NCBI GenBank assembly: GCA_019242395.1
Contig: JAFAVP010000150.1
Span: 1 to 41,476, forward strand
Direction of reading: 5' to 3'
Source: Alphaproteobacteria bacterium
GTDB lineage: Bacteria > Pseudomonadota > Alphaproteobacteria > Micropepsales > Micropepsaceae
Length of the DNA: 41,476 nucleotides
Each line of letters starts with the position of its first letter. Within the stretch, counting starts at the first letter, position 1. The notes under the pieces were generated by a model, which saw only the letters and a program-made list of their open reading frames with translations, was not told where the DNA came from and searched no databases. The position numbers and the translations under genes were made by a program. Below, piece by piece: positions 29,901 through 40,720 of this stretch.

Positions 29901-30400
29901 CCGGAACCGGCGCGCCCCAGCACCTGCGCGCGCGCTTCCGCGATCAGGTCGCGCGCGCTCTGCTCATCGAGCACCCGGAAGGCCGGCGGAACGCTGGCTT
30001 CGATGGGAAACCGCCCGAGCAGCCGCTCACAGAAGGAATGGATGGTCTGGATCTTCAGACCACCCGGCGTTTCCAGCGCCAGCGCAAACAAGCGGCGCGC
30101 GTGCTTCAGGCCTTGCGCGTCGGGAACAGGCGCACCGATTTCGGCAATCGCCTCGCCGAGCTTCACATCGTCGAACATGGCCCAGGCGCCGAGTTGCGTG
30201 AAAAGCCGCGCCTGCATCTCGGCGGCCGCCGATCTGGTATAAGTGAGACAGAGGATTCGCTCCGGCTTGGCGCCGTCCAGCAGCAGCCGCGTCACGCGAT
30301 TGGCCAAGGTGTGCGTCTTGCCGGCGCCCGCATTGGCGGAAACCCAGGCGGAACGGCGTGGGTCGGCGGCCGCGAGCGCCGCGTTCAGCACGGTGCTCAT
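26999..30400 (-). CDS. addA: Double-strand break repair helicase-nuclease AddA
   Basis: UvrD-family 3'-5' helicase with C-terminal RecB-type nuclease, 1133 residues; with AddB it resects double-strand ends to load RecA. Walker A 'ANAGAGKT' is at 22-29. Walker B 'LIDEAQDTSP' is near 400. 'VGDQKQSIFSFQGAD', 'VHGAKGLEADIVFLPD' and 'LYVALTRAKERL' are helicase motifs III, V and VI. The nuclease core 'GRMDRLAV...AIDFKTNRPP' is near 1060 with the Asp and Lys intact. The ATG at 30400 overlaps the addB stop (ATGA) with GGAGG upstream. The longer start at 30433 was rejected. Confidence 0.96.
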   Translation of the reverse strand: MSTVLNAALAAADPRRSAWVSANAGAGKTHTLANRVTRLLLDGAKPERILCLTYTRSAAAEMQARLFTQLGAWAMFDDVKLGEAIAEIGAPVPDAQGLKHARRLFALALETPGGLKIQTIHSFCERLLGRFPIEASVPPAFRVLDEQSARDLIAEARAQVLGRAGSGDSQLSAAVAHIVTETSENRLHQILDAALGNDRRKLERFFSILPEGEDALRRLAERAHGVNQCDTVENIAETFCAEAKAEAEQLASVVAWLSDGGKTDKGFAYELQAFVTRGFSTDSFRALRGAFCKTDGEAKEKLVTKALAEARPELAAYVTRLAERFIAAEQRCRAARAALLAHAALTLADAVREVYTAAKRARGVLDYNDLISDTLSLLNRNDAAAWVLYKLDGGLDHVLIDEAQDTSPEQWQIVRKLTEEFFAGVGKRDLFAAPRTVFAVGDQKQSIFSFQGADPDEFEVNRQHFAAHAEDDFADVRLQTSRRSAPEILQFVDAVFSDPAAREGLTSSGEPVKHEAFRKDAKGLVEFWPAIKPVKTPEPDYWRPVDVESETSPVVQLAEKIAARIRKWLDDKVRLPGHEQPIRAGDIMILMPRREPFATEIIRKLTQMRVPVAGADRIRLKNEIAVMDLMALGRFALLPEDDLNLAALLRSPLVALSEEELFAVANGRQGRLWSALVTRREELPSFASAHAFLSEMLHRADYAPPYEFFARALSADNMRARLLARLGPEANDAVDEFLSLALEYEALATPSLEGFLHWVERGDAEVKRDMERGRDQVRVMTVHGAKGLEADIVFLPDTTTLPDAPGRRGELLYQDDHVIFPIRKVDACEAVSAAKEIAKQEALKEHRRLLYVALTRAKERLYVCGFENKNGIRDGSWYRLAEAAISKIGNTVERGDAAVYSLGDDAADRAGAAVAKIVKMELPEWVRTMPQPERARPRLIRPSDEAEGGEPATLSPAGPKQAKRFRRGLLIHTLLARLPEIASDERRTIALAFLAGQGELPEDAAAHVDATLRVLNDVQFAAAFAPGSKAEVAIVADLPELGEGARVSGRMDRLAVTHEEVLAIDFKTNRPPATRVEDVPPIYIRQMALYWLALAKLFPQKRIACALVWTEGPCLMPLPAEILDKEAARLRSA

Positions 30401-33387
30401 TCCTCCGCCTCCTCCCATCCGGCCAGCGCCCATTCGCCCACGCGCGACAGGTGGTCGTAATCGCCAGGCTGATCGGCGCGGAACGGCATCACGCGCGGCA
30501 GATACGGCATGTCCTGGTTGCAGTAGTCGGCGAGGCGCATACGCAAATTGACCTCGGCCTTGATAATGAGATTGGAGACATCCGGCGTGGGACGAATTTC
30601 CCCCGGCTCTACGCCCCCGCCGAAACGGATGTAGATGAGTTGGGATGTTGTAAGCTTGCCGGCATCGGCGAAACCACCTTCTGCGAGAATGAGGGCTTCC
30701 AGCGGCAGTTGCGGCGAGAGCAGCAGCTTCACCTGCTTGGGCGAAGGCAGCGCACCCGTCTTGTAATCGATGATCGCGGCGGTGCCGTCCGTCAGCACAT
30801 CGATGCGGTCAGCGCGGCCGCGCAGCACGAATTCGCCCGCCGGTGTTTCGAACGTGCGCGTACCAGCGATCTCCAGATGCGAGCGCGCGATGCTGTCGCG
30901 CCGCAGCTTTTCTTCCGCCACGAACCAGCGCGCCGCATTGATGAAGCGCGGCCGCCAGAGCGCAATGGCGACATTCGGCAGATTCGCTTTACGGAACACA
31001 TCGTCCGCGATGTGGATCAGTTCGGCATAATTCTCCGGCAATTCGCGCGGAAACTTCCTGATGAATTGCTCAAGCGCGGAGTGCACCACGCTGCCACGCT
31101 CCAGCGGCCCGATTTGCGCGTCGAGCGGATCGAGCGGCTTCAGGCCGAGCACATACTTCGCGTAGACCGCATAAGGGTCGCGCAGCCAGGTCTCGATATC
31201 GGTGACGGAGAGACCTTTGGGCCGCTTGTCCACCGGCGGACAAGGACGCGGACGTTTCATACGCTGCGGGCGGCCACCCGGCTGGTCGCGCAGCGCAGCG
31301 AGGCTCGCGTAAGGCGTTTCTGCTTTCAGCTTATCACTGAGCCCTAGACCGCCGGTCAACTGCTGCAGGCGCTGCAGCCAGCGCGAGGCAACCGTGGGCG
31401 CGCCCTCCGCTTTCAGGGCGCGCGTTAGCACCACCTTGGGCGAGGAAGCGAGCGTGGCGAAGTCATGCGCCGCCAGGCCGATGCGGCGTTCCGGCGATTC
31501 CAAACCGAGCTGCGTGCGCATGGGGCGCGACAACCAGGGATCGGTGCTGGCACCGGAAGGCCAGGTGCCTTCGTTCAAGCCCCCAAGAATGATAAGATCG
31601 AAACTTTGCAGCCGCGCTTCCAACGGTCCCAGAATCGCGAGCCGCGCGTGCTTGCCGAATGGCGGCCGCACGGCGCGCTCTTCCGCGAGAGCGCGAAACA
31701 GCACGGGGTAGGAACTGGTTTCGATCTCCGGCAGGTCGCCGCAGGCTTCTTCCAATTCTGTGACAAGGCGAGCCGCCGCTTCGCCGGCCGGCTCCCGCCA
31801 CAACCGCGCGTCGCCACATTCTACGTCCGTTGTGGCGAGCGCTTCCGCACCAGCGACGTGCGCATTCAACATTTGGGATAGTGAGGCCGTGGCGTTTGCG
31901 AACGCGTGTTCCAGCGGGTCCAGAATTTCGCGCAGGGCTTTCAACCAGTAGGCGAGTTCAGCCATCCGCTTCAGCGCAAATTCGCTGTTGCGCCTGCGCG
32001 CGTCCTGCAAGGCTGCCGAAGTGGCGCGTTCGATGCCAACGATGCCGGGATCGGGCCGCGGCCCGCGCAATACAAGGCGATCCAATTGGCGCACGCGGCG
32101 GCGAAAATCCGCTGGCGCCTGATTGCCTGCTGCCAGCGGGTGCTTCAGCAGCGCCAGCAACGGCACCGGTGCGAAGTTTTCCGCCGCCGCTTCGGCGAGC
32201 AGGCAGAGGAAGGTGCCCGGCGGCGTGTTGGCGAGCGGCCGGCCCGCGGAATCGTCGATCTCGATGTCCCAGCGGGCCATCTCCGCCGCGACGCGCCGCG
32301 CCAGCTTGCGGTCGGACGTGACCAGAGCCGCCGTGCGGCCGGGTGTCTCAAGTGCGTGCCGGAGCATCAGGGCGATGGCGGCGGCTTCTTCGTTCGGCTG
32401 CGCTGCTTCCACCAGCGACAAACCATCGAGCCCTTGCGCGATCTCTCCGCTGCCGTGCTCGGCGATGGCGCGCCAAGCATCGGTGGTGGGCGCCGGCCGC
32501 AAGGTCTCGCGGATCAAGGTTTCGCGCGCAGCGAACGAAGGCGCAGCATTGAACGCCTTCACCTCGGCGCGCTGGACACCGATGCGCTCTAGCAGCTGCT
32601 TCAGCCCGTATTGCGGATGGCCGGGATCGAGATTGTTCCAGCTCGTGTCATCCAGTCCTTTGTCGAGGCCGGGCAGCACGACAAAGCCGTTCGGAAGATC
32701 GGCGATCGCTTTCAGCAAGTCCGCGGTGGCCGGAATGCTGCCGGTTGAACCGGCGGCGACGACCAAACCTTCCGGCGGGTTCTGCTCAAGCCGCCTCGCC
32801 AGCGCGCGCAACGCCAGATTGCGCCGCGCCGCGGGATTCATCTTGCCTTCCTCCGCCAGCACGTCGGGCCAATGGTTGCGCACGATCTGCAGGAAGGTTC
32901 TCACCTCTGCCCAGTGTTGCGCGAAGGCCTCCGGCGCCAGCTTGTCCAGATTGGCCAGGTCGCAGCCTTGGGTCTCAGCCTCGTCGAGGAAATTTGCAAG
33001 GGCGCGCGAAAGCGCCACCGCTTGCGCGAAGGAAATGTGTTCGCGGCGGCGTTTGCGATCCCACTTTTGCACCAGAGTTGACAGCAGCAAGGCGCGCCGC
33101 AGTGGCGAAATCGCGGGCGGCAGGGTCAGCGCGTCGGCGCCGACGTCGAACAGGAAGTCCTCTTCCTGGACATCGCCGAGCGGCCGCATGTTCGGCAGCA
33201 GCGCGGCGCCGCCAAGAATTCGCGCGAAGGCTTCGTTCAACGTCCGCGCCGCGCGCCGCGTCGGTAGGTAAAGCGTGACGTCAGAGAGCGCCAACGGATC
33301 GCGCTCGGCCCCGACTCGCGCAATCAGATCGCGCGCCAAGGTTTCGGCGAAGGGGGCGCTCGCCGGAATGGTGTAGACATTGGCCAT
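30397..33387 (-). CDS. addB: Double-strand break repair protein AddB
   Basis: Partner of AddA, 996 residues. Alphaproteobacterial AddB has an inactivated helicase-like body: at the N-terminus, where Walker A would be, the sequence reads 'VYTIPASAPFAETLAR' with no GKT. The C-terminal RecB-like nuclease is intact ('RGRADRIDV' ... 'AIIDYKTG', about 855-880). It is predicted to recognise Chi-like sites and cut the 5' strand. It starts 6 bases after the murU-like gene and overlaps addA by ATGA, so AddA and AddB should be made in equal amounts. Confidence 0.95.
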   Translation of the reverse strand: MANVYTIPASAPFAETLARDLIARVGAERDPLALSDVTLYLPTRRAARTLNEAFARILGGAALLPNMRPLGDVQEEDFLFDVGADALTLPPAISPLRRALLLSTLVQKWDRKRRREHISFAQAVALSRALANFLDEAETQGCDLANLDKLAPEAFAQHWAEVRTFLQIVRNHWPDVLAEEGKMNPAARRNLALRALARRLEQNPPEGLVVAAGSTGSIPATADLLKAIADLPNGFVVLPGLDKGLDDTSWNNLDPGHPQYGLKQLLERIGVQRAEVKAFNAAPSFAARETLIRETLRPAPTTDAWRAIAEHGSGEIAQGLDGLSLVEAAQPNEEAAAIALMLRHALETPGRTAALVTSDRKLARRVAAEMARWDIEIDDSAGRPLANTPPGTFLCLLAEAAAENFAPVPLLALLKHPLAAGNQAPADFRRRVRQLDRLVLRGPRPDPGIVGIERATSAALQDARRRNSEFALKRMAELAYWLKALREILDPLEHAFANATASLSQMLNAHVAGAEALATTDVECGDARLWREPAGEAAARLVTELEEACGDLPEIETSSYPVLFRALAEERAVRPPFGKHARLAILGPLEARLQSFDLIILGGLNEGTWPSGASTDPWLSRPMRTQLGLESPERRIGLAAHDFATLASSPKVVLTRALKAEGAPTVASRWLQRLQQLTGGLGLSDKLKAETPYASLAALRDQPGGRPQRMKRPRPCPPVDKRPKGLSVTDIETWLRDPYAVYAKYVLGLKPLDPLDAQIGPLERGSVVHSALEQFIRKFPRELPENYAELIHIADDVFRKANLPNVAIALWRPRFINAARWFVAEEKLRRDSIARSHLEIAGTRTFETPAGEFVLRGRADRIDVLTDGTAAIIDYKTGALPSPKQVKLLLSPQLPLEALILAEGGFADAGKLTTSQLIYIRFGGGVEPGEIRPTPDVSNLIIKAEVNLRMRLADYCNQDMPYLPRVMPFRADQPGDYDHLSRVGEWALAGWEEAEE

Positions 33388-33393
33388 TCCGGT

Positions 33394-34116
33394 TCAGGCC
33401 GGCGCGAGATCGGCGAGAAAGGCTTCCGCCTCCTTTAGCGCCTCCGGCGTGCCAACATGCATCCACACGCCGTCCAGCCGCACGCCGAACAAACGCCCCT
33501 GTTCCATCGCGCGCTCCCACAATTGCAGCAGATGAAAGGCGCCGCGCGGCGCACCTTCGAACAGGCGCGGATGCAGGATGGACGCGCCGACATATGCAAA
33601 CGGCGACAGGCGCCCTTCAGGCACCGAGGTGAGGCGGCCTTCCGAATCCATGAGGAAATCGCCGCGGCCCTCATAGCCCATGGACGTAACCAGCGAAGCC
33701 ATCAGCAGCAGCGAATCCATTTCATCCGCATTCCAGCGCGTCTTTAGGCGCTCCAGCGCGCGGCCATACCCTTCCGCCCAGATGGAATCCGAATTGTGCA
33801 GGAAGAACGGCTCGCCTTCGAAATGCGGCAGGGCCCGCACGATGCCGCCGCCCGTGCCGAGAATGGTGTCGGTCTCGTCTGATATGCGGATTTCCACATC
33901 GTCGCGCTTGGCCAGGTGATTGCGCAACTGTTCGGCGTGATAGTGCACGTTCACGATGATCGTGGTCACGCCCGCATCCTTCAGCCGGTCGATGGCGTGG
34001 TCGATGAGCGCGCGGCCAGCCACCTTCACCAGCGGCTTGGGCGTGGTGTTGGTGAGCGGTCGCATGCGGGTGCCAAGCCCCGCGGCCAGAATCATCGCGC
34101 GGGTGATGTTGCTCAC
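33394..34116 (-). CDS. murU: Nucleotidyltransferase, N-acetylmuramate-1-phosphate uridylyltransferase-like
   Basis: NTP-transferase of 240 residues with the sugar-nucleotide signature 'LAAGLGTRMRPLTNTTPKPL' at 10-29 and the metal-binding 'HNSDSIW' (about 108). Next to an AmgK-like kinase it is most likely MurU, which makes UDP-MurNAc from MurNAc-1-phosphate and so recycles cell-wall sugar past the fosfomycin-sensitive steps. A GDP-mannose-type activity is possible by sequence. The GTG at 34116 overlaps the kinase stop (GTGA); the longer frame to 34230 is within the kinase gene. Confidence 0.85.
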   Translation of the reverse strand: MSNITRAMILAAGLGTRMRPLTNTTPKPLVKVAGRALIDHAIDRLKDAGVTTIIVNVHYHAEQLRNHLAKRDDVEIRISDETDTILGTGGGIVRALPHFEGEPFFLHNSDSIWAEGYGRALERLKTRWNADEMDSLLLMASLVTSMGYEGRGDFLMDSEGRLTSVPEGRLSPFAYVGASILHPRLFEGAPRGAFHLLQLWERAMEQGRLFGVRLDGVWMHVGTPEALKEAEAFLADLAPA

Positions 34117-35234
34117 GCGGCCGCTCCGGTGATCGTCTGGTGGCGCGCGGCGGCGGGAATCTTGCGGTCGTACCAGCGCTTCAGATTGGCAAGCGCCGGA
34201 TGCTGCAGATCGCGCTCCAGATACCCCCACACCCGCGGCAGGTAGGAAAGATAGCGCGGCTTGTCGTCGCGCTTGTAAAGGCGGGCGAAGATGCCCGCGA
34301 TCTTGGCGTTGCGCTGCGCCGCGATCACCGCGGCTTGCGTGCGATAAGCATCCCCATCGAAGGCGCCGTCGGTTTTCTGCCGCGCCTCGATGTAGCGCTG
34401 CATCATGGCGTCCGCGAGTTCCGTTGCCACATCGCGGCGGGCATCTTCCAAGAGCGAAATCAGATCGTAGCTGGTGGTGCCGGCCACGGCATCCTGGAAA
34501 TCGATCATGCCGACACGCGCCGCACCTTCGCGCTCAGGCAGCCAAAACAAATTCTGGGCATGATAGTCGCGATGCACGAACACCGGCGGGGCGCTGAGCA
34601 CGGGCTGGAGTGCCTCGCACCACAACATGCGATGTTCCTCCCGCTCGTCTTCGTTCGCAGCACGGCCGAGCGCGAGCGGCACGAACCATTCCGTCAGCAA
34701 ATCTGTTTCGGCGATGAGCGCAGTTTCGTCATAAGCGTGCAGCGGCTTTCCGTTGCCGAGTTCTGCGGGTGCGGCTTCGCCGTGCAATTTCGCCAGCGCA
34801 TCGATGGCCGCGCCGTAAAGCGCGGGCTCCTCGCCCGCGTGGCCATTCGCCAGCACAACGGTGTAGAGATCGTCGCCCAGATCTTCGATCAGAACGAAGC
34901 CCTGCTTCACATCTGCAGCAAAAACATGCGGCGCGCTCAAGCCTCGCGCGCGCAGAAAATCGGCGACGGCGACAAAGCGCCCGCAATCCGCGCCTGCCAG
35001 ACGCGCGACCGCGTTGTAGCCGAGCGTGCGGCGCTGCTCCGGCGTGGCATTCGCCGGCGACTGCGGCGCTTCGGCATTCTGCGGCTGATCCATCAGCATG
35101 GCGCAATTGCCGCCGCGATGAAGGCGAATGTAGCGGCGCGTGGAAGCATCGCCGGGAAGCGGCGACAAGACCGCATCGCCCCAGCCGGCGCCGTGGAGAA
35201 ATTCATTCATCGCTTCCCGACGTTCAGGACTCAT
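34113..35234 (-). CDS. amgK: Anomeric amino-sugar kinase (APH family)
   Basis: Aminoglycoside-phosphotransferase-fold kinase, 373 residues. The catalytic loop is 'VHRDYHAQN' (His221, Asp223, Asn228), and the metal loop is 'MIDFQDA' (Asp245). The N-lobe has 'GDASTRRYIRL' and 'LIEDLGDDL'. In Pseudomonas and Caulobacter, AmgK phosphorylates MurNAc at the anomeric carbon for MurU. The ATG at 35234 has GGAAG seven bases upstream; 35249 is an alternative. It overlaps tsaE by 11 bases upstream and murU by 4 downstream, all consistent with one operon. Confidence 0.87.
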   Translation of the reverse strand: MSPERREAMNEFLHGAGWGDAVLSPLPGDASTRRYIRLHRGGNCAMLMDQPQNAEAPQSPANATPEQRRTLGYNAVARLAGADCGRFVAVADFLRARGLSAPHVFAADVKQGFVLIEDLGDDLYTVVLANGHAGEEPALYGAAIDALAKLHGEAAPAELGNGKPLHAYDETALIAETDLLTEWFVPLALGRAANEDEREEHRMLWCEALQPVLSAPPVFVHRDYHAQNLFWLPEREGAARVGMIDFQDAVAGTTSYDLISLLEDARRDVATELADAMMQRYIEARQKTDGAFDGDAYRTQAAVIAAQRNAKIAGIFARLYKRDDKPRYLSYLPRVWGYLERDLQHPALANLKRWYDRKIPAAARHQTITGAAA

Positions 35235-35709
35235 GCCGTTCACTTCCATGCAGACGCGAAGCCCATTCGGCCGGGCCACTCACGCGCGCGCGGCGGCAAT
35301 GTTCGCCGGCAATTTCCATTTTGATATGCAGCGCGCCAGCCGGCAGCCGCGTGCCCGCGCGCTCCGGCCATTCGATCAGTGCCGCGCCGTTCAGCAGCGA
35401 CTCATCCAGTCCCAATTGCTCGATCTCCGACTCGTCTTCAATTCGGTACAGATCGAAATGATCGATGTTGAGGCGGGGTGGCTCATAGTGCTGCACTAAG
35501 GTGAAGGTGGGGCTGGGTACGTCCTCCGCCACACCCAACGCCCGCAACATGGCGCGCGCCAGAGCCGTTTTTCCGGCGCCGAGATCGCCGGCCAGCGCCA
35601 CCGAATCGCCGGGCTTCAGCGCGGCCGCAATCGTTGCGCCGAAAGCGCAAGTCGCAGCCTCATCGGAAAGCAGGATTTCCCGCACGAACCCCTCGGATTT
35701 GCCCTTCAT
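35224..35709 (-). CDS. tsaE: tRNA threonylcarbamoyladenosine biosynthesis ATPase TsaE
   Basis: P-loop ATPase needed with TsaB, TsaC and TsaD for the t6A37 modification of ANN-decoding tRNAs; 161 residues. Walker A is 'GDLGAGKT' (41-48), followed by 'SPTFTLVQHYE' and 'HFDLYRIEDESE', the family marks. The ATG at 35707-35709 gives normal length; upstream frame to 35850 lacks homology and would overlap the divergent reductase gene. It is the first gene of the tsaE-amgK-murU-addB-addA-trxA unit. Confidence 0.93.
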   Translation of the reverse strand: MKGKSEGFVREILLSDEAATCAFGATIAAALKPGDSVALAGDLGAGKTALARAMLRALGVAEDVPSPTFTLVQHYEPPRLNIDHFDLYRIEDESEIEQLGLDESLLNGAALIEWPERAGTRLPAGALHIKMEIAGEHCRRARVSGPAEWASRLHGSERHES

Positions 35710-35833
35710 CGACAGGCTCTTAGCGGGCCATATCCCCCGCCGCAACGCAAGCACCTGCGCCGTTGATTCCACATCTTCCTTGCGCCTATCTAGCAGCCCA
35801 TCCGTGACCGCCGCGTAAGGGCCAGCCGCAAAA

Positions 35834-37380
<1,547 letters not shown>

Positions 37381-37384
37381 TCCG

Positions 37385-38029
37385 CTAAGCGGCGGCCTTT
37401 TCCCGCCTGAAAAGCTTCTTGAAAAAGCTGGAACGGTTGTGCCGCTTCGTCTTGCGGTCGATTTCCGCCTGGCTGCGCACCCAGGCGATTTGCACCACGC
37501 GGCGCTCGCCCACGAACGGGGTGTGCCCGTGCCAGGACTGACCGGCGCGGCGGAACGCTACGAACGATCCCATTTCGGGGCTGACTTCCGCTTCGTAGTC
37601 GCTGAAATCCTTCTCGCTGCGCAGGACGCGGAAGCGGCCCTCCGGCGAAAGCCAACCTTCATTCATGTAAATGAGCAAGGTCGCGATCTTGCTTTCGGAA
37701 TCGCAGTGGATGTTGCCTTCATGCGCGGCAGACACTTTGCGGACGGTGATGAGCGTGGGATAGGGCGACAAGTCCACCCCCAAGGCCTGGGAAGCCGCCC
37801 GGGTGAATTCCGGCCCTTCCATCTCTTCGATCAGTTGCGCAAAGGCGCCATCCACCTTCATCTGCGAGAGGGGATGAAACCCGGTCACTTTGATATCCGG
37901 AAAGCTTTCGCGCAGCGCCGGAATCCACTCTGCCCGTAGGGCGCCCTTGCCCGTCATCCAATCGTAAGGAACCCGATGCACCTCCGCGGCGCGAATGGCC
38001 TCGTAGTCGATGATGCTGCCGGCAGGCAT
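37385..38029 (-). CDS. 2-oxoglutarate/Fe(II) oxygenase (prolyl-4-hydroxylase-like)
   Basis: Non-haem iron dioxygenase of 214 residues. The facial triad is predicted as His108 and Asp110 in 'GNIHCDSES' plus His167 or His169 in 'QSWHGHTPF'; Arg176/177 in 'GERRVVQIAW' would bind 2-oxoglutarate. The C-terminus is unusually basic ('KRHNRSSFFKKLFRREK'), which could bind nucleic acid, ribosome or membrane. The substrate is unknown. The ATG at 38029 is the first in frame. It lies 58 bases after divL on the same strand and is convergent with the ferredoxin gene. Confidence 0.8.
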   Translation of the reverse strand: MPAGSIIDYEAIRAAEVHRVPYDWMTGKGALRAEWIPALRESFPDIKVTGFHPLSQMKVDGAFAQLIEEMEGPEFTRAASQALGVDLSPYPTLITVRKVSAAHEGNIHCDSESKIATLLIYMNEGWLSPEGRFRVLRSEKDFSDYEAEVSPEMGSFVAFRRAGQSWHGHTPFVGERRVVQIAWVRSQAEIDRKTKRHNRSSFFKKLFRREKAAA

Positions 38030-38087: not shown

Positions 38088-40409
38088 TCAGGCAGCGTGC
38101 GCCTGTTCGCTCAGCCGCCGGGGCAAATGACAGCGCACCAATGTGCCGCGCCCTTCGCCCGTTTCGATTTCCACCCAGCCGGAATGCAGCTCCACAAAAC
38201 TGTTCACGAGCGCCAGCCCCAGCCCGGCCCCCGCGCGCTTTCCGGCGCGCCCCCTCGCTTCGAACCGGTCGAAGGCACGGGCCTGGAAATCGGCGGCAAT
38301 CCCCGGTCCGCTGTCCGAGACGTAAATCTGGACATCGTCGCCGGCAATCTGCGCGCCGAGGGTGATGGCCCCGCCGCGCGGCGTATATTTGAAGGCGTTC
38401 GACAGGAGGTTGAAGACCACCTGACGGATGCGCCGCTGATCGAGCATCGCGGTGCCGAGATCCGGTTTCACATCGAGCCGGAATGCGATGTCGAGCCCAG
38501 CGGCATGCTGGCGCAAGGGCTCCGCGACCCGTTTTAGAAGATCGAACAGATCTACGCGGCCCAATTCGAGGCGCATGTTGCCGGACTCGATCATGGCCAG
38601 ATCGAGAATGTCGCTCGTGATTTCGGCCAGTTTGTGCGAGGCCGTCAGAATATTCTGTATGTAATCGGACTGCTTTGCCGTGAGCGCGCCCGCATGTCCA
38701 CCGGCCAACAGATCGGCGAACCCCTGGACCGCGTTGAGCGGGTCGCGGAACAGGAAGGAGGCGTGCTGCACGAAATCGGACTTCAGCTTGTCCGCCGCCA
38801 TCAGGGCATCGTTGCGTTCGCGCAGCGCCGTCTCGATGCGGAAGCGATCGGTGATATCGGCGAAGGTGACGAGCGTCGCGCCGTCCGGCAAGCCCGCGAG
38901 CGCCACCGCCACAATGCTGCCGTCGGACCGCTCGACATGACCCCATTCGTGCAGCCGTTCTCCTCCGGAAGAGATGCTGGCCGTGAGCTTTTGCCACGCA
39001 GCCTCTTCTCCGAATCGTTGCACGCACGCCTGAGCGATCTTCTGGACGTGCGGCTCGTCTGAGAGTTCGTCTTCCTCGAACTGCCACAGCCGGGCAAACG
39101 CGGTGTTGTGCAGTTTGAGCCGGCCGTCCGGGCCGAACACCGAAACGCCTTCGCTGAGGGAGTTGAGGGTGGCCCGTTGCACGCGGATCAAGGTGTTATA
39201 GGAACTCTCCAGCCGCAGCTTCTCGGTGATGTCCTCAAAAAGATAGGCGATGCCGCCAAGCGGATGGGGTTGCGCCACCACGCGCAGCGTCCTGCCATCC
39301 GGCAGGTGCCATTGTTCCTCGGGGATGAACTGGTCCGTCCGGTGATAGGCCGAGAGGCGTTCGCGCTTCCAGGCCTGGAAATCCCGTTGTTCCGGAAGCT
39401 TGCGTGCCTCGCGCAAGCGATCGAGCAACTCGCCGTCCGTCGGATGGGCCGCAAGCCAAGGCTCCGGGAGGTCCCATAACTGCGCGAAAGCCTGATTGTA
39501 AAACGACAGCCGCTGATCGCTGCCGAAGATGGCGACGGCTGTGGTGAGCTTGTTCAGTGTATCGGAGTGCGCATCCAGGTGTTGCTGCAGCGTGGCCTCG
39601 GCATTGGAGGCAGCGGTCACATCCAGCGCGATGCCAAGAACATTGCCATCTGGGAGCGGGATGGCGGTGAGCGACATGGCCCGCCGCTGACCTTGCACCG
39701 CGACATAGCGCTTGCCCTCCACGCGCACGTCTTCGCTGCGCGCGGAGCTGGCAAGCTCGCGCTCCGCTTTTTCCAATCCGCTTTGCATGCCGATTGCGGC
39801 CGCGGCATCCGGCGCGCCCACGGTTTCGACAAATGCGCGGTTGACCCAGGTGAGCGCAAGCGAGCGGTCGCGCAGCCACACCGGCATCGGCAGCACGTCC
39901 ATGGCCGCATGCAGATCACTGGAAACGGTGGCCACTGCTTGAATGGCTTCCTTGTCGAGCCACAGTGCGGCGAGCCCACCCACCGCCCGGCCGCGCACGC
40001 GCACGGTCTCCCCGCTGCGCGTTTGCGCATGCAGCGCGAAGGAAGCGCCGCTTTCGCCAAGATCGTCGAGCGCCTGCGAGAGGAGGAGCGCATCGGGGCC
40101 GGCAAGGCATGCCTCCAGGAGCTCCTCGCTTCCGCCGTAGGAGCGGGTCATCTCCAAATCGTGGCCCCACACCAGAACACGCTCGCGCCCCGCTTCGATG
40201 ATGGCATCGCGCGCCGACACGGCGGCGCGGGCGCGCGCGTTGACCTCGCGCATGGCGCGGCGCAGCTTGGCCGCGGCGCTGTGGGCCGAGATCGCCCAAA
40301 GGGATGCGGCGATCGAAAGCGCGACGGCGCCGAAGCTGATAACGCTTGGCACCATGCTGCCGCCGGACGCGAGCGCGGGTTGAGGCAGCAGCAAGAGGGC
40401 TGGGATCAC
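38088..40409 (-). CDS. divL: DivL-like PAS-domain cell-cycle pseudokinase (Phe at the phospho-acceptor site)
   Basis: Membrane-anchored sensor kinase homologue. The GTG at 40409 gives 773 residues, close to Caulobacter DivL (769), with N-terminal hydrophobic segments (about 1-40) and three to four PAS-like regions (about 95-540). The HisKA helix reads 'KSDFVQHASFLFRDPLN': Phe552 replaces the phospho-His and also the Tyr550 of Caulobacter DivL. The HATPase domain is intact ('NLLSNAFKYTP', 'DSGPGIA', 'GAGLGLAL'), and 'SFVELHSGWVEI' is a DivL hallmark. DivL tunes CckA and so CtrA phosphorylation in response to DivK. The start is uncertain; the frame runs to 40661, but upstream codons look intergenic. 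Confidence 0.85.
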   Translation of the reverse strand: MIPALLLLPQPALASGGSMVPSVISFGAVALSIAASLWAISAHSAAAKLRRAMREVNARARAAVSARDAIIEAGRERVLVWGHDLEMTRSYGGSEELLEACLAGPDALLLSQALDDLGESGASFALHAQTRSGETVRVRGRAVGGLAALWLDKEAIQAVATVSSDLHAAMDVLPMPVWLRDRSLALTWVNRAFVETVGAPDAAAAIGMQSGLEKAERELASSARSEDVRVEGKRYVAVQGQRRAMSLTAIPLPDGNVLGIALDVTAASNAEATLQQHLDAHSDTLNKLTTAVAIFGSDQRLSFYNQAFAQLWDLPEPWLAAHPTDGELLDRLREARKLPEQRDFQAWKRERLSAYHRTDQFIPEEQWHLPDGRTLRVVAQPHPLGGIAYLFEDITEKLRLESSYNTLIRVQRATLNSLSEGVSVFGPDGRLKLHNTAFARLWQFEEDELSDEPHVQKIAQACVQRFGEEAAWQKLTASISSGGERLHEWGHVERSDGSIVAVALAGLPDGATLVTFADITDRFRIETALRERNDALMAADKLKSDFVQHASFLFRDPLNAVQGFADLLAGGHAGALTAKQSDYIQNILTASHKLAEITSDILDLAMIESGNMRLELGRVDLFDLLKRVAEPLRQHAAGLDIAFRLDVKPDLGTAMLDQRRIRQVVFNLLSNAFKYTPRGGAITLGAQIAGDDVQIYVSDSGPGIAADFQARAFDRFEARGRAGKRAGAGLGLALVNSFVELHSGWVEIETGEGRGTLVRCHLPRRLSEQAHAA

Positions 40410-40720
40410 CGAAGCCCCAAAGGAGCGGCGCTTGTGTGCCCGGCTTATTGGCCCTGCCGGTTTGAAGCCTACTCTCAAGCCGCCCCCGATTCCGCGCTTC
40501 CGCCGCGAATCACTGCGGAATCGGAATGATATGCAGGTACCCCGGCATGGCATAGGCATAGGGGTTAACAAATCGTAAAAATCCAGATGTGGTTCCGCGG
40601 GCGACAGCTTGGGGATGGCGGGCGGAGCGGTAACGAGTGGCGCGAAGAGCCGCCGGAGCACCGCCGCTCGCTAGACTTTCCAGCCACGCTCTCTTACAAG
40701 CGCGCTCTCCCGCCCAGCGC
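40410..40720. promoter_or_regulatory. divL: Upstream region of divL with GANTC cluster, inverted repeat and CtrA-like box
   Basis: 311 bases between divL and tRNA-Phe. It contains a perfect 10-base inverted repeat, CCGATTCCGC (40486-40495) and GCGGAATCGG (40515-40524). Three GANTC sites (CcrM methylation motif) lie at 40488-40492, 40507-40511 and 40518-40522; two of them are in the repeat arms. A TTAA-N7-TAAA sequence at 40565-40579 differs by one base from the CtrA box TTAA-N7-TTAA. The stretch also could encode an N-terminal extension of divL in frame, but codon use and lack of homology argue against it. Confidence 0.55.

Follow-up and report, generated by a model that had tools for sequence, protein, structure and literature searches.

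A fixed replacement of the DivL H-box, with phenylalanine at the acceptor position, in one lineage of an uncultured alphaproteobacterial genus

The window, i.e., the whole stretch of 41,476 nucleotides that was analysed, carries a divL gene on its minus strand with the following features:

38088..40661, minus strand: divL, 857 amino acids from the most upstream GTG, 773 amino acids if the GTG at 40409 is the start
39207..39557, minus strand: PAS_7 domain, residues 369-485, the better-scoring of two stretches (Pfam)
38844..39167, minus strand: PAS_4 domain, residues 499-606, immediately N-terminal of the DHp domain (Pfam)
38580..38783, minus strand: HisKA (DHp) domain, residues 627-694 (Pfam PF00512, 6.6e-10)
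38727..38765, minus strand: rebuilt H-box in DHp helix 1, residues 633-645, HASFLFRDPLNAV, containing 7 of the 14 fixed differences between the Phe and Tyr groups described below
38754..38756, minus strand: TTC codon of Phe636 (Phe552 from the GTG at 40409), corresponding to Tyr550 of Caulobacter DivL
38115..38441, minus strand: HATPase_c (CA) domain, residues 741-849, with the N, G1, and G2 boxes kept (Pfam PF02518; group consensus)

A Pfam search found the domains PAS_8, PAS_7, PAS_4, HisKA, and HATPase_c in the encoded protein, with HisKA and HATPase_c exceeding the Pfam cut-offs. The N-terminus contains a hydrophobic stretch and the protein is probably anchored in the membrane. The DHp helix reads KSDFVQHASFLFRDPLNAVQGFADLL in the translated reading frame, and the phenylalanine codon TTC that the earlier note had placed at the phospho-acceptor position is indeed found at 38756-38754 of the minus strand. 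Its statement that the ATP-binding motifs are intact was confirmed as well, as the boxes of the CA domain which we take to be N, G1, and G2 are kept. With respect to the gene start, an in-frame GTG is located within the divL frame at 40409-40407 of the minus strand. Many matches to divL homologues begin around residues 45-105 of the 857-residue query, and several homologues with matches beginning further up have stops within the upstream part. Thus divL more likely starts at this GTG, or at an ATG close to it, than at 40661. The residue number 552 first given to the phenylalanine holds from the GTG at 40409, while it is 636 from the most upstream GTG. Among the 25 of 76 NCBIfam matches listed for the protein, no family reached its cut-off and a DivL model was absent.

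Four conserved neighbours of divL are encoded on the same strand:

35224..35850, minus strand: tsaE (PF02367 and TIGR00150; synteny)
34113..35279, minus strand: amgK-like kinase gene (below the equivalog cut-off; synteny)
33394..34230, minus strand: murU-like nucleotidyltransferase gene (below the equivalog cut-off; synteny)
30397..33387, minus strand: addB (TIGR02786 above cut-off; synteny)

The order divL-tsaE-amgK-murU-addB was found in all ten Rhizobiales loci compared (Rhizobium, Neorhizobium, Ciceribacter, and two further Rhizobiales records). In the window, three genes at 35834-38029 separate divL from tsaE: the plus strand encodes a ferredoxin reductase and a 2Fe-2S ferredoxin, the minus strand a 2OG-Fe(II) oxygenase. 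The sister locus L014 comprises the ferredoxin pair after divL too, followed by tsaE-amgK-murU. At the genus locus L013, tsaE was not found within 4 kb, and among six other loci from outside the genus with 1.5 kb flanks (L047-L052) it lies beside divL in two (L048 and L051). Ferredoxin matches occur near divL in many loci of the genus, in Phe and Tyr groups alike. Oxygenase matches near divL were limited to five loci, all of Phe type (L026, L234, L235, L236, and L238), with mostly 1.5 kb of flank searched.

The best PDB sequence match of the window protein is Caulobacter DivL (4q20; 2.1e-43), followed by a match of 2.5e-27. Similarly, an AlphaFold model of its kinase core (residues 607-857; mean pLDDT 73.5, with the DHp part at about 55-69) delivered 4q20 as the first two Foldseek matches. 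Within the window genome (3.1 Mb, 99.6% complete), this divL is the sole full-length DivL-like match; the other 25 matches to a DivL query consist of a kinase core or part of one with at most one PAS domain. As a second full-length match is missing, another kinase as the true DivL was ruled out. The earlier note had taken the protein for DivL and had named a phylogenetic position outside DivL, or another orthologue in the genome, as findings that would speak against it. Neither was obtained, and in our tree the protein groups among DivL sequences. Thus from its domains, the match to 4q20, the gene order shared with the Rhizobium group, and its standing as sole full-length match, the window protein is a full-length DivL orthologue. 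Its acceptor is Phe, so that, as expected of a DivL protein, a phosphorylatable His is lacking. The typical Tyr is absent too. However, we do not regard Tyr as defining for DivL, since Ala has been accepted in print (PMC4211667) and 16 of 111 loci outside the genus do not possess it. The motif of active HisKA proteins, H-E/D-x-x-T/N (PMC3510030), is replaced by F-L-F-R-D.

To allow a comparison within the genus, 69 genomes were searched. A DivL match was present in 64 of them, and 62 were readable at the acceptor, G268 (a PAS-only match) and G285 (beginning past the acceptor site) being left out. The column contains Phe in 13 and Tyr in 49 genomes. Since 12 genomes besides that of the window carry Phe in the same motif, with Asn replacing Asp in one of them (G286), the residue is no lone sequencing error. 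The tree excludes rows shorter than 450 amino acids (G005 with Phe, G001 with Tyr, and G285); in it the 12 remaining Phe rows lie on one side of a branch with an SH-aLRT support of 100 and thus form one group within the genus, as far as a quick method with long outgroup branches can resolve it, the Tyr row G023 standing beside the Phe group without firm placement. As Tyr occurs in 9 of 9 outgroup rows, it was taken as ancestral. Mapping the origin of Phe, as had been suggested, therefore supports the view that the hydroxyl was lost in a lineage, all 13 genes of which carry Phe.

The survey beyond the genus covered 111 loci in 110 genomes (G080 has two loci, and G026 was added); they represent best matches, not each of them a proven orthologue, and 16 of 125 matching genomes were left out, mostly with low-scoring or cut matches. 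The acceptor is Tyr in 95 loci, His in six, Phe in three, Thr in two, and Cys, Val, Ser, Arg, or Gly in one each, leaving ten loci with neither Tyr nor His. The earlier assertion that Tyr is generally kept is hence broadly correct, yet it has exceptions, and these are more than the single one named in PMC4211667. The three Phe loci (L164, L185, and L194) belong to two other families and show different motifs (SFSLRSP, SFDLKAP, and SFELRSP), so Phe probably arose independently at least two more times outside the genus. With three Phe among 111 loci, and with the Caulobacter variant Y550F reported to bind DivK~P specifically (PMC4211667), Phe alone is unremarkable. If a single Phe is tolerable, the notable part is that a whole group replaced the remaining H-box chemistry and then held the replacement. 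The six genomes with His at the acceptor of their best DivL-like match (L161, L162, L169, L118, L188, and L197) have either a DivL with His or another kinase as best match. Furthermore, L198 and L201 (family f47, genomes of 0.8-1.0 Mb) combine a Thr acceptor with an acidic residue at H+4 (TELKEP and TELKDP), and the G1 and G2 boxes of these proteins are degraded.

The change in the lineage comprises more than the one residue first noticed. We called a difference fixed if it held for at least 90% of the genes in each group, and comparing the 13 Phe with the 49 Tyr genes gave 14 such differences in 768 columns. Seven of them fall within the 12 residues 634-645, where HVSYELRTPLNTI became HASFLFRDPLNAV: V548A, Y550F, E551L (H+1), L552F (H+2), T554D (H+4), T558A, and I559V in Caulobacter numbering. 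This block takes in the acceptor as well as the Glu of kinase and the Thr of phosphatase activity. The PAS regions contain one fixed difference in 465 columns. The clustering in DHp helix 1 has a hypergeometric P of 1.4e-4 if columns are treated as independent. Four Tyr-type clades, each compared against the remaining Tyr genes, gave 10, 3, 1, and 3 fixed differences, none of which lies in residues 630-650. The R-D-P sequence had been called unusual, and rightly so: within the genus, 12 of 13 Phe genes and none of the 49 Tyr genes have Asp at H+4, and only one of the 111 loci outside the genus has it. G286 has Asn there, so that one Phe gene retains a phosphatase-type residue at this position. 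Leu at H+1 was found in none of the 111 loci outside the genus, and no genome intermediate between both motifs was seen among the 62 readable ones. Residues 633-639 and 641-644 are identical in 13/13 Phe genes although their codons, except that of Arg, vary, and within a 19-codon box six pairs from the Phe group gave nonsynonymous to synonymous differences of 0/10, 0/4, 0/6, 2/4, 2/8, and 2/9. Consequently, the new motif is under purifying selection and not in decay. One might argue that a disused residue was replaced neutrally by Phe, in isolation and through drift only, as Tyr was replaced repeatedly outside the genus and the Caulobacter Y550F variant still binds DivK~P (PMC4211667). However, seven nearby positions are fixed differently and kept across 13 genomes, while the four Tyr-type clades lack any fixed difference in this stretch, and we thus regard drift alone as highly improbable. 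What is new is the fixed and well-kept replacement of a whole H-box motif in one lineage of an uncultured genus; our searches of the open-licence literature did not bring up any naturally occurring Phe-type H-box in DivL.

The residues concerned can be read against known chemistry. With Tyr set to 550, the published residues R553, T557, Y562, H579, D595, and A601 (PMC4211667) fit the 4q20 chain, and the Phe column of the window protein coincides with Tyr550. For the HisKA proteins tested in PMC3510030, an acidic residue after the His is described as necessary for kinase activity and Thr or Asn at H+4 as necessary for phosphatase activity. There, CrdS N375D had no significant phosphatase activity, and in HK853 the equivalent Thr is described as placed such that it can coordinate the water molecule attacking the phospho-aspartate. 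At the acceptor, H+1, and H+4, the window protein carries Phe, Leu, and Asp, respectively. In contrast to these losses, R553, a published DivK contact of Caulobacter DivL (PMC4211667), as well as P555 and A601 are retained in 13/13 Phe genes, and the N, G1, and G2 boxes are retained in the group consensus. The earlier note had proposed such a check of DivK-binding residues. Asn at 557, Phe at 562, and Tyr at 579 are common to the Phe group and most of the Tyr group (Caulobacter H579 and Y562 are Tyr and Phe in both, with one deviating Tyr-group row at each), and are thus not part of the H-box change. Asp595, the proposed partner of Arg553 in a switch model (PMC4211667), is replaced by Ser in 12/13 Phe genes and by Asn in 40/49 Tyr genes. 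Thus some details of the Caulobacter switch cannot apply here. Caulobacter DivL itself is reported to have neither kinase nor phosphatase activity and a dispensable CA domain (PMC4211667), while its phospho-specificity is described to depend on the PAS domain and not on the kinase region alone (PMC5361649).

In the window genome we recognised, by sequence features and gene layout, proteins that are presumably DivK, PleD, CckA, CtrA, and CpdR. The DivK gene adjoins the PleD-like gene, and a ChpT family member (PF10090) is present. Among the Phe genomes, DivK was found in 12 of 12 sampled, CckA in 12/13, and the ChpT family in 12/13. Comparing DivK from 12 Phe and 25 Tyr genomes under an 85% rule revealed 0 fixed differences, with 109 of 122 columns conserved in both groups, which ruled out a co-change in this protein. 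For CckA (7 Phe versus 21 Tyr genomes), no reliable fixed difference was obtained; three columns were flagged, two with only one or two Phe rows and one reflecting a D/E preference, and we did not count them as real. Judged from these alignments, there is no sign of a rewired DivK or CckA partner. It had been proposed that the role of the hydroxyl is either dispensable or rewired. Earlier reports on Y550F and on the Ala of Magnetospirillum (PMC4211667) had already indicated that DivL can do without the hydroxyl, while rewiring remains unsupported on the partner side. A Phe-type DivL that no longer senses DivK, with an H-box that drifted after loss of docking and an influence on CckA through the PAS domains only, would fit to the occurrence of PAS-only DivL-like proteins in the genus and to the CA domain being reported as dispensable (PMC4211667). 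However, the H-box is under purifying selection, Arg553, Pro555, and Ala601 are kept, and DivK is present and conserved. We hence consider this scenario very unlikely.

Instead, we think it quite probable that the Phe-type protein is a pseudokinase sensing DivK~P which has given up what was left of its H-box chemistry and works through docking and conformational coupling. A PAS-rich pseudo-histidine kinase would sense phosphorylated DivK and relay this phosphorylation state to CckA, with no phosphotransfer involved. The ancestor of the lineage would have exchanged the tyrosine-type H-box HVSYELRTPLNTI for HASFLFRDPLNAV, thereby removing the acceptor hydroxyl, the acidic autophosphorylation residue, and the phosphatase Thr/Asn, while the DivK-contacting Arg, the next Pro, and the ATP-binding boxes were kept. 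Such a protein would possess neither kinase nor phosphatase activity, DivK would dock to the same surface, and a conformational change may couple the protein to CckA, as proposed for Caulobacter. That a whole H-box motif was swapped for a well-kept new one suggests action purely by partner binding. However, the ATP boxes are kept, though a pure binding protein might not need them.

The acidic residue at H+4 allows another scenario, in which the rebuilt H-box alters sensing and Asp, presumably close to the phosphoryl site of DivK, weakens or inverts the preference for DivK~P. Its main ground is Asp554, present in all but one of the Phe genes within a block that became conserved again, and the described role of the HK853 Thr at this place (PMC3510030) would be in line with it. 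In addition, none of the 101 loci with Tyr or His outside the genus has an acidic residue at H+4, but two of the ten remaining loci do, and these two belong to the same family. Yet DivK is unchanged, G286 has Asn at H+4, and the PAS regions, to which PMC5361649 attributes phospho-specificity in Caulobacter, hardly differ (one fixed difference in 465 columns). We thus consider altered sensing unlikely. A further reading, with Asp as a new phospho-acceptor, found no support. In a more far-reaching speculation, the whole surface with which DivL reads its response regulator would have been remodelled in one piece. Helix 1 (Asp554) instead of helix 2 (Asp595) would now supply the acidic latch partner of Arg553, and with both hydroxyl and Thr gone and Asp introduced, the sensor would read an unchanged DivK regardless of, or opposite to, its phosphorylation. 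We rate this as slightly less likely again.

Compared to known systems, the pseudokinase proposed here most resembles Caulobacter crescentus DivL (4q20; PMC4211667): both comprise PAS, DHp, and CA domains, lack the acceptor His, and keep Arg553/Pro555 and the ATP boxes, and both genomes encode DivK and CckA. Where Caulobacter DivL has Val548, Tyr550, Glu551, Leu552, and Thr554, the window protein has Ala, Phe, Leu, Phe, and Asp, respectively, and 12/13 Phe genes have Ser in place of the switch-model Asp595 (PMC4211667). Magnetospirillum magneticum DivL, compared at the acceptor alone, shares a non-phosphorylatable residue, namely Ala (PMC4211667). The kinase-less DivL of Rhodobacterales is described to act without kinase chemistry as well; however, those proteins have lost the kinase part and their genomes lack DivK (PMC2877005), while the Phe-type lineage kept both. 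Corynebacterium ChrS is likewise a pseudokinase form of a histidine kinase, although it belongs to an unrelated signalling system (PMC9491836). Phe-type DivL proteins provide a natural mutant series for the question of what the Tyr and its catalytic neighbours still do once phosphotransfer is gone. As the Glu is gone as well, a swap of Phe to His is expected not to revive the kinase.

Besides full-length DivL, DivL-like proteins with PAS domains and no HisKA occur in the genus (loci L088-L095 and L277-L286). A DivL match that stops by query residue 649 was seen in 21 of 69 genomes, as the sole match in G268 and beside another DivL match in the other 20. Where the locus was read (18 cases), the frame ends 1-24 residues past the match in 17 and 52 residues past it in L286. 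A genome-wide match search found no such protein in the window genome, and among the 13 Phe genomes only G002 and G272 have one. DivK is also present in 17 of 19 sampled genomes with a kinase-less match, which runs against the statement in PMC2877005 that a kinase-less DivL always accompanies the absence of DivK.
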